DNA of 64,000 nt from Campylobacterota bacterium. Its GTDB lineage: Bacteria > Campylobacterota > Campylobacteria > Campylobacterales > Arcobacteraceae. The stretch covers positions 1 to 64,000 of the forward strand of contig QMKX01000003.1 in NCBI GenBank assembly GCA_003643835.1, given 5' to 3'. Of this stretch, positions 61,223-63,784 are shown in pieces (the stretch's first letter is position 1; each line of letters begins with the position of its first letter). The position numbers were made by a program, and so were the translations under genes. The notes below the pieces were generated by a model. That model worked only from the letters and a program-made list of their open reading frames with translations. It ran no database searches and had not been told where the DNA came from.

Positions 61223-61267
61223 TATGTATTGAACCCTCTGATTAAATAACAAGCTCATAGCTTTAGG

Positions 61268-61350
61268 ATAGCTTTTTATATTGTTGAGTTCTGTTTTGAT
61301 GGACTACTTAGGTAATTCGAAAGACATAACTCAACAATATGAAAAGCTAT
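61268..61350 (+). repeat. Internal 23-bp hairpin of the element
   Basis: The left arm starts ATAGCTTTTTATATTG and the right arm ends CAATATGAAAAGCTAT; all 23 positions pair in RNA, one as G.U. The loop is 61291-61327. As DNA it would also form a cruciform inside the outer repeats. Confidence 0.75.
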
Positions 61351-61379
61351 ACAAAGCCCGTAGGGAAGGGAAGTTTTAG
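61299..61379 (+). CDS. 26-residue open frame inside the element, unknown
   Basis: ATG 61299 to TAG 61379 encodes a peptide beginning MDYLGNSKDITQQ and ending KARREGKF. Its composition (charged, aromatic, no low-complexity run) is protein-like and hydrophilic. The start lies in the loop of the inner hairpin and has no clear ribosome site; the frame stays open upstream to about 61272. It could be a real small peptide, a remnant of a transposase, or chance. I do not recognise it. Confidence 0.3.
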   Translation: MDYLGNSKDITQQYEKLYKARREGKF

Positions 61380-61513
61380 CGAAAAAAGTCCATAAAAATT
61401 CTTGAATTAACCAGTTAGTCCTTCAAATTTTTCATGAACTTTTATTCATCAAAAACTGCTCCTTCTATGAGCCTGTTATTTAATCAGAGGGTTCTATTAT
61501 AAAAAGGGTAAAT

Positions 61514-63322
61514 ATGGTAAAGCTAAACAAAGCACAACTAAACAAAAAAATACAATATATCAATGACTATATAGTATCGCAAAACGCAGCAGAAGGTTCA
61601 AAATTTGATGCAAATGCAAATGTAGATATCAAAAATATAGCTACATTAGAAACAGAGATACACAAAGATATCAACATACAAGTAAATAGGGAACTCTTGA
61701 GATATGAGATAGAAAATTTATATAACAAAGAGCTCTCATATGAATATATCAACCAATTAGAAAAACACGAAATATACACACACGATGAAACCTCACTCAA
61801 ACCATATTGTGTGTCGGTGACTTTGTATCCATTTTTGATAGACGGTGTTACTAAATTGGGCGGCGAAAGCAAAGCCCCTATACATTTAAACTCATTTAGC
61901 GGGTCATTTATCAACTTTGTGTTTGCAACTGCCGCACAGTTTGCTGGAGCTGTGGCTACTGTGGAGTGGCTTATGTATTTTGATTATTTTGCTAGAAATG
62001 ATTTTGGGGAAGATTATATAAATACACACATAAAAGAGATATCAGATGCTTTGCAACATGTCGTATATTCACTTAATCAGCCAGCAGCTGCGAGAGGTTA
62101 CCAAAGTGTATTTTGGAATATATCTATATACGATAAACCATATTTTGAAGCTATGTTTGACAATTTTATTTTTCCAGATAATACAAAACCAACATATGTA
62201 TCATTGGATAAGCTACAACGATTTTTTATGAAATGGTTCAACAAAGAAAGACAAAAAGCAGTTTTGACCTATCCTGTTGTTACTGCTGCATGCTTAAGTA
62301 GTGGCACAACGATGACAGATAAAAAATTTCAAGAATTTATCAGCGAAGAGTTAGCGCAAGGCAATTCATTTTTCATATTTATGAGTGAAAATGCTCATGC
62401 CTTATCGAGCTGTTGTCGTTTGAAAAATGATGTATCAGATCAAATAAATGATTTTAGCTACTCTTTAGGAGCTGGTGGCGTGGCTACAGGTTCTATCAAT
62501 GTTATAACGATAAACCTAAACAGACTAATACAAAATGCATATTTGAACAAACAAAATATCTTTGAAGCACTCAAATTACAAACACAGAAAATCCACAAAT
62601 ACCAAATAGCATTTAGACAGCTTATAAATAAGTACAAAAAAGCAAAAATGCTGCCTGTATATGATGCTGGTTTTATATCTTTGGAAAAACAGTATCTCAC
62701 TATTGGAATAAATGGATTAGTAGAAGGAGCAGAGTTTTTAGGTTTAGATATAAGCATAAACGATAAGTATATGAAGTTTGCTTCTAAACTACTCAAAACA
62801 ATATCTGATGAAAATAAAAAGATATCTAATCTATCTGGTTATAAGTTTAATACAGAGTTTGTGCCAGCTGAAAACCTCGGTGTCAAAAATGCAAAATGGG
62901 ACAAAAATGATGGCTATGTAGTTCATAGGGATTGTTATAATTCATATATGTATCTTGTAGAAGACAACGACATATCTACAACCCAGAAATTTGAGCTCCA
63001 AGGAGCAGAGTTTATGAAATACCTTGATGGGGGTAGTGCATATCATTGTAATTTGGAGGAAACACCAAATAAAGAAACATTTATAAAACTACTAGATGTG
63101 GCAGCTGTAGAAAAATGTGATTATTTTTGTTTTAATATCAAAATAACCATCTGTAACGAATGCTCCAACATAGACAAAAGAACATTATACAAGTGTCCTA
63201 AATGTGGCTCTACAAACATAGACTGGGGCACACGAATTATAGGCTACCTTAAAAGAATCTCATCTTTTAGTAAAGCAAGACAACAAGAACATGATATTAG
63301 GTATTATGATATTGGTGCTTGA
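61514..63322 (+). CDS. nrdD: Anaerobic (class III) ribonucleoside-triphosphate reductase
   Basis: NrdD reduces ribonucleotides to deoxyribonucleotides with a glycyl radical, without oxygen. At 602 residues it lacks the N-terminal ATP-cone that regulates the 712-residue E. coli enzyme. FDANANVDIKNIATLE opens the core, DFSYSLGAGGVATGSIN lies in the middle, four Zn cysteines are at 547, 550, 561 and 564, and the radical glycine is expected at 577 in RIIGYLKR. The ribosome site AAAAAGGG lies just outside the repeat element. nrdG follows directly. Confidence 0.95.
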   Translation: MVKLNKAQLNKKIQYINDYIVSQNAAEGSKFDANANVDIKNIATLETEIHKDINIQVNRELLRYEIENLYNKELSYEYINQLEKHEIYTHDETSLKPYCVSVTLYPFLIDGVTKLGGESKAPIHLNSFSGSFINFVFATAAQFAGAVATVEWLMYFDYFARNDFGEDYINTHIKEISDALQHVVYSLNQPAAARGYQSVFWNISIYDKPYFEAMFDNFIFPDNTKPTYVSLDKLQRFFMKWFNKERQKAVLTYPVVTAACLSSGTTMTDKKFQEFISEELAQGNSFFIFMSENAHALSSCCRLKNDVSDQINDFSYSLGAGGVATGSINVITINLNRLIQNAYLNKQNIFEALKLQTQKIHKYQIAFRQLINKYKKAKMLPVYDAGFISLEKQYLTIGINGLVEGAEFLGLDISINDKYMKFASKLLKTISDENKKISNLSGYKFNTEFVPAENLGVKNAKWDKNDGYVVHRDCYNSYMYLVEDNDISTTQKFELQGAEFMKYLDGGSAYHCNLEETPNKETFIKLLDVAAVEKCDYFCFNIKITICNECSNIDKRTLYKCPKCGSTNIDWGTRIIGYLKRISSFSKARQQEHDIRYYDIGA

Positions 63323-63784
63323 TTGATTTATTTTTCATATGCTCAAGAGACACTCCAAGCAGTGCCCGGTGAGATATCTATAAGTTTATCTATTAGTGGT
63401 TGTTCAATAAACTGCAAAGGATGCCACAGTGTAGATACACATAAATCAAACTTTGGACAAAAACTTACGAAACAAAAGTTCCTTGATTTATTGTATAAGC
63501 ATAAACATATCTCGTGTGTGCTTTTTTATGGTGGCGAGTGGGTAGCAGATGAGTTGCTGCTTTATGTTGATATAGCAAAGCAGAAATATCTTAAAACAGC
63601 TATATATACTGGATTAGAATTGCATAATTTAGAAAAAAAGTTTATAAATGCATTTGATTATGTAAAAACAGGAAAATATATACAAAAATTAGGAGCAATA
63701 AACTCAAAAACTACAAATCAAAAGTTTTATAAAATCATAGATGGAAAATATATAGATATTAGTTCAATTTTTTTATATTTTTAG
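63323..63784 (+). CDS. nrdG: Anaerobic RNR activating protein (radical SAM)
   Basis: NrdG makes the glycyl radical on NrdD using SAM and a 4Fe-4S cluster. The 153-residue protein begins at TTG 63323, immediately after the nrdD stop. The cluster motif CSINCKGCHSVDTH (CX3CX2C) and the FYGGEWVADELL segment are typical. The last 26 bases overlap the convergent mtnN gene. Confidence 0.92.
   Translation: MIYFSYAQETLQAVPGEISISLSISGCSINCKGCHSVDTHKSNFGQKLTKQKFLDLLYKHKHISCVLFYGGEWVADELLLYVDIAKQKYLKTAIYTGLELHNLEKKFINAFDYVKTGKYIQKLGAINSKTTNQKFYKIIDGKYIDISSIFLYF

Follow-up and report, generated by a model that had tools for sequence, protein, structure and literature searches.

A 264-bp element at positions 61231-61494 of the window (the whole 64,000-nt, or 64 kb, stretch of DNA analyzed here) is best explained as a non-autonomous, MITE-like element with IS5-type ends and a conserved ~222-nt two-hairpin core that is a module of its own; we assign this reading a probability of roughly 0.65. 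MITEs are usually viewed as dead insertion sequences whose interior is unimportant. Here, it is the core that is the conserved part with a history of its own—present in 22 of 87 sampled genera and having survived at least nine changes of ends—while the ends are replaceable.

The first-pass annotation had reported 30-bp terminal inverted repeats, complementary at 29 of 30 positions, with TATT on both outer sides, and both features are confirmed by the sequence and by a repeat search (arms 61228-61260 and 61465-61497; 33 nt, 94% complementary). The element's end 20-mer occurs at only two places in the window, i.e., at the two element ends, against 0 expected. The predicted RNA fold of 61225-61500 is very stable (-107.4 kcal/mol versus -50.7 ± 4.2 for shuffles; z = -13.5; 0 of 200 shuffles as stable), which bears out the annotation's view of an ordered interior, except that this interior comprises two hairpins, connected by CCCGTAGGG, rather than the one proposed (Table 1). 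Hairpin 2 is an inverted relative of hairpin 1. Specifically, a hairpin-1 model matches hairpin 2 on the minus strand (E = 1e-8), and matches to the covariance model described below span 61252-61373 (+) and 61357-61473 (-). No ORF of at least 40 aa lies within 61231-61494, and the element is without a transposase gene.

Table 1. Features of the element and its downstream neighbor in the window, with the basis for each assignment.
Feature	Position	Strand	Basis or remark
Left target-site duplication TATT	61227..61230	.	Sequence; 4-bp duplications are usual for A- and B-ended relatives
Left terminal inverted repeat	61231..61260	+	Outer ~21 bp are an IS5-like A end, GAACCCTCTGATTAAATAACA; full-length IS5 with the same ends in L187
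Inner part of left terminal repeat, GCTCATAG	within 61231..61260	+	Part of the shared core
Two-hairpin core, ~222 nt, conserved and common to differently ended elements	61252..61473	.	Model matches; order-wide alignment
Hairpin 1 (H1), apparent top-strand fold constraint	61261..61356 (arms 61263-61297 / 61321-61355)	+	Inverted repeat, covariation, wobble polarity
H1 tip, GGACTACTTAGGTAATTC	61301-61318		
Junction mini-hairpin CCC-GTA-GGG	61357..61365	+	CCC/GGG retained in nearly all cores
Hairpin 2 (H2), inverted relative of H1, apparent bottom-strand fold constraint	61366..61456 (limits approximate)	-	Minus-strand model match, wobble polarity
H2 tip, GAATTAACCAGTTAGTCC	61404-61421		
Right terminal inverted repeat	61465..61494	-	Inverted-repeat and end-20-mer searches
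Right target-site duplication TATT	61495..61498	.	Sequence
nrdD (anaerobic ribonucleotide reductase), neighbor outside the element	61514..63322	+	TIGR02827, E = 1.9e-263

The window's own genome (Arcobacteraceae-type) carries at least nine core copies at different places (the window copy and at least eight others), several of them at contig ends, as expected since repeats break assemblies, and relatives of the element are present in three same-genus genomes and in one from another family (G038). These copies are dispersed and intergenic, and no long ORF spanned a copy among the 53 examined. Most copies in the genus have the core in common and differ in their outermost 21-23 bp. A ends (Table 1) mark the window copy and B ends (GGKCACCTCTAAAAACCTCTAT) most others; some copies are 97% identical in the core yet entirely different in their ends (A vs B). 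Mixed elements, A at one end and B at the other, also occur (L033, L139, L144). Exact 4-bp duplications flank 12 of 16 same-genus B-ended copies, against ~1% per copy expected in AT-rich DNA. The first-pass annotation had cautioned that a four-base duplication is weak evidence alone; this holds for the single copy, and it is the family that strongly supports the duplication. Its suggestion of a MITE-like element gains support from the same observations (multiple dispersed intergenic copies with target duplications) and from ends held in common with autonomous insertion sequences.

These insertion sequences belong to the IS5 family. In G001, a transposase fragment (L178) is followed by CTTAATCAGAGGGTTC, and the relative G060 carries a full-length A-ended IS5-family element (L187; 1240 bp, GAACCCTCTGAATAA...TTATTCAGAGGGTTC, duplication GATT) whose transposase is 70% identical to the L178 fragment and scores above the NF033581 cut-off. 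B-like ends are found on further IS5 elements, whose 4-bp duplications are TTAT, TTAA and ATAT, and the A-kind and B-kind transposases share only 30% identity. Judged by these sequence matches alone, the window copy carries the ends of an IS5-family insertion sequence, B ends are those of another IS5 group, and the element is probably a non-autonomous one moved by IS5-family transposases; this is inferred from shared ends, as no transposition was observed. The annotation's remark that no described element has these ends needs qualification: they match IS5-family elements of relatives, which are unnamed, and ISfinder lay outside the comparison. No intact A-type insertion sequence was found in the window's genome assembly, which holds one damaged IS5 gene (L177/L191); frameshifted and without clear ends, this gene was rejected as the driver. 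Elsewhere, many near-identical IS5-family copies occur (L189-L215; at least 16 in G024 and 8 in G060), and those inspected have B-like ends (GGGAACCTCTAAAAAT).

Beyond A and B, the core is found with ends of type A2 (GAGACCTCTGAA), C (GAGACCACTGCACAG), D (AACCTGAGTTCGAC), E (GGCGACTCCAAGG), F (TAGACTTC) and others, at least eight in total, and D, E and B ends occur together in a single genome, G310. A tree of the cores requires at least nine end-type changes, with D arising twice and well-supported branches forcing at least five changes for B, though the tree method was a quick one and end types were assigned by eye. Duplication lengths also vary with end type: 14 of 29 copies in a wider B-type set have exact 4-bp duplications (six of the 14 from the window's genus), C-ended copies have 5-bp duplications (exact in 5 of 12, with a single mismatch in another 6) and D-ended copies 3-bp duplications (3 of 6). 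As these lengths differ, different transposases are probably at work, but the lengths for C and D were picked after viewing the flanks and their p-values are flattered. No transposase was seen beside C or D ends, the ORFs read there being host genes only, as judged by eye. With at least eight end types, the core is shown to have changed its terminal repeats repeatedly, so that a single core rides several transposition signatures. A conserved core common to at least eight end types does not meet the MITE test that the interior be decayed IS sequence; a decayed interior is a common rather than strictly defining feature of MITEs, and we therefore keep the MITE-like label.

The extent of the core was surveyed with a covariance model built from 14 copies and covering hairpin 1 together with the linker. 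Matches occur in 52 of the 399 genomes sampled from the order, representing 22 of 87 genera, and there is frequently more than one per genome; E-values are rough, and the genomes are mostly fragmented MAGs, some carriers (e.g., G039 and G141) being single-contig genomes. Inspected matches are true relatives: they have the tip and the junction AAAGCCC-NNA-GGGAAG in common, and a further hairpin bearing the tip in inverse form is present although the model covered the first half only. Most of 47 aligned cores (alignment restricted to 190-240 nt) are 219-225 nt long, and the internal loops and junction are kept among them. The tip, GGACTARC..GYTAATTC, is fixed but imperfect, lies as inverted copies on the two hairpins and retains one G.T and one C.A at fixed positions in nearly all copies. 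In hairpin 1, all 43 of 43 pairs have changes on both sides, 1171 such cells in all; shuffling gave 353, and sliding the partners likewise left far fewer. The alignment behind this count was fitted to the model and hence leans towards it; a structure-free alignment of the first copy set gave a similar picture of covariation. Rfam yielded no match at the gathering score in the window or 16 further loci, which answers the annotation's call for a check against known RNA families, and relaxed thresholds returned only miRNA-like chance hairpins. Nor was there a match in the plasmids, phages and viral contigs searched. The core is not recognizable as IS debris and instead forms an independent module.

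The two hairpins appear to be constrained on opposite strands. A folded single strand tolerates G.U (or G.T) pairs, not A.C. Counted on the plus strand, G.U to A.C numbers are 75:7 in hairpin 1, 17:67 in hairpin 2 and 13:11 in the closing stem. Because these copies were found via a hairpin-1 RNA model, which favors G.U, a second count was made on 16 copies identified solely from their ends, giving 28:2, 0:28 and 2:5, respectively. The direction agrees in both sets and is opposite between the two hairpins, though the cells come from related copies, are not independent, and the p-values overstate certainty. As a statistical pattern, then, the constraint on hairpin 1 appears to be that of a top-strand fold and the constraint on hairpin 2 that of a bottom-strand fold, while the closing stem looks constrained only as an inverted repeat, as expected of transposon ends.

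We infer that an IS5-family transposase supplied elsewhere would act in trans on the ends, and that the core would travel as a passenger module, i.e., two long inverted hairpins joined by a CCC-NNA-GGG mini-hairpin. Each hairpin would act as a folded single strand, RNA or single-stranded DNA, its function being inferred only, and reading into the element from either side would meet the correctly folded hairpin first. The likeliest use of the core, which we can offer only tentatively as no transcription was observed, is two-way processing, arrest or insulation of read-in transcripts. The window copy has no promoter or terminator beyond chance, no terminator-like site was found, and the genes around copies (30 tandem, 12 convergent and 11 divergent; crude ORF calls with a few near-duplicate rows) show no excess of convergent positions, so that this transcript-handling role is without positional support.

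The next candidate for the use of the core, somewhat unlikely in our estimation, is that of a DNA recognition module, in which the hairpins would be extruded in single-stranded DNA or as a cruciform, one per strand, and would serve as binding sites for a protein of replication or recombination, e.g., a Y1/HUH (REP-type) transposase or a replication factor, although no binding was observed. The opposite strand polarity of the hairpins suits this idea, as does their arrangement as an inverted pair with a conserved imperfect tip, like REP/inverted-REP pairs. Y1 genes are also commoner in carriers (34 of 52 vs 160 of 347, p = 0.011, uncorrected for kinship), and in G385 a REP-type Y1 transposase gene has a C-ended element immediately 5' of it (L371:1-1073). 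However, this is the one adjacency among 14 Y1 loci examined, and no Y1 gene (PF01797) was detected in the window's genome (G000), G002 or G003; with co-occurrence weak and adjacency not systematic, the specific REP/Y1 hypothesis was rejected. A link to Xer/difH sites was likewise rejected, the A. butzleri difH 40-mer TTAATTAGTATTGAAAACTATAATTTTCAAATAAAATATA (PMC2731167) being unlike the tip. The same polarity bears on whether the core needs a function at all, for it could belong to an ordinary MITE whose inner palindromes were passively perfected by arm-to-arm correction (template switching). Arms do agree better within copies than between them, two-sided changes greatly outnumber one-sided ones, as correction would give, and long palindromes together with modular swaps of hairpin 2 (L004, L120, L171) suggest that template switching occurs. 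Yet correction predicts neither opposite polarity in the two hairpins nor its absence in the closing stem, and it leaves unexplained the kept junction and internal loops and the 219-225 nt length of most copies. The tip's fixed G.T and C.A, moreover, persist where a perfect palindrome should have formed, indicating that the arms are not undergoing simple homogenization. We consider a functionless core improbable.

The first-pass annotation had offered a self-contained RNA gene as its other option, here a single non-coding RNA transcribed from one strand and flanked by transposon ends by chance. The strongly conserved structure in this proposal stands, given the covariation, the conserved loops and the constant length, but one RNA does not explain two hairpins constrained on opposite strands: on the plus strand hairpin 2 has A.C where hairpin 1 has G.U, so that neither strand is constrained throughout. 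With no Rfam match and promoter and terminator at the window copy not beyond chance, we regard it as quite improbable; opposite polarity thus argues against both a single RNA and passive palindrome repair. A fixed regulatory leader of nrdD, suggested by an element end 19 bp before the nrdD start codon, is already refuted by the multicopy distribution and keeps a negligible share of our belief. Copies lie at many unrelated loci, and a search for nrdD in the three congeneric genomes, which carry relatives of the element, detected none; confinement to one place before nrdD, which the annotation had said would refute mobility, does not hold. The element is thus not a fixed nrdD leader, though a secondary effect on nrdD expression is possible. 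No empty site was found for the window copy, as the congeners' neighborhood differs and nrdD is undetected there, and for the latter reason the locus may reflect a recent gain of genes. nrdD is accompanied downstream of the element by a probable activase partner, nrdG (together 61514-63784).

The reading we prefer, a MITE-like element with IS5-type ends around an independent core, can be set against known systems. Reviewed prokaryotic IS-derived MITEs are described as decayed transposons, each with ends from a single source (PMC10969869; QMITE2 of Coxiella, PMC5896051). The element resembles them in being short and ORF-less, with IS-shared terminal repeats, target duplications, AT-rich intergenic sites and stable folds, and is unlike them in an interior conserved over 22 genera and in exchanged ends; it is MITE-like by every tested criterion except the interior, which is a conserved end-swapping module and not an IS remnant. 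With the IS5 family (NCBIfam NF033581 group) it shares the ends and the 4-bp duplications of A- and B-ended copies, but neither a transposase gene nor any resemblance of the interior to the IS sequences seen here. Two imperfect inverted hairpins with conserved tip asymmetry recall BIME/REP pairs (REP-associated Y1 transposases), from which the element differs by its DDE-type ends, target duplications, ~95-nt hairpins and lack of a fixed GTAG foot, and by Y1 genes that are absent or distant in most carriers examined. Like TIMEs (Tn3-derived miniature elements; PMC4133298), it is non-autonomous and becomes mosaic; TIMEs, however, have Tn3-type 38-bp ends and gain gene modules between constant ends (PMC4133298), a pattern that the element reverses, its core being constant and its ends changing. 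The Thiomargarita group I intron-MITE combination (PMC4853749) also joins a structured nucleic acid to MITE-type ends in dispersed copies, but the element has no intron-like core and no Rfam match. Whether it represents a distinct class—a two-hairpin lineage whose hairpins would work as folded single strands on opposite strands and which would repeatedly acquire the ends of any DDE transposon at hand as it spreads across the order—we raise as a possibility at somewhat under even odds.

No description of the family was found in open papers (ISfinder not covered), and within that scope it is apparently undescribed. The family makes directly testable how hosts continue to benefit from, or at least tolerate, a non-coding passenger, and the opposite strand constraints indicate a specific, checkable mode of action. 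As a structured family missing from Rfam, it would also aid annotation of Campylobacterota genomes whose assemblies break at its repeats.

Several smaller observations accompany the family. Palindromes of 46-51 bp, scarcely more than two B ends, occur at L118:202-250, L119:202-247, L159:515-563 and L174:421-468, with exact 4-bp duplications at three of the four, and amount to minimal core-less elements. Lone A ends without a recognizable partner (L133, L134, L138, L140, L141, L152), mostly with AATT before GAACCCTCTGATTA and some near gene starts, are either decayed elements or chance or exapted end sequences. The copies with swapped hairpin 2 named above (L004, L120, L171) carry an alternative module (GGATATTTCACCAAAAATTTTT...) in its place, which indicates that hairpins have been exchanged within the genus. 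Small palindromic repeats (AGCCGTGGCGATTTTCGC...GCGAAAAA) inside or beside copies in the window's genus (L005, L006, L130, L017) are apparently a second repeat family.
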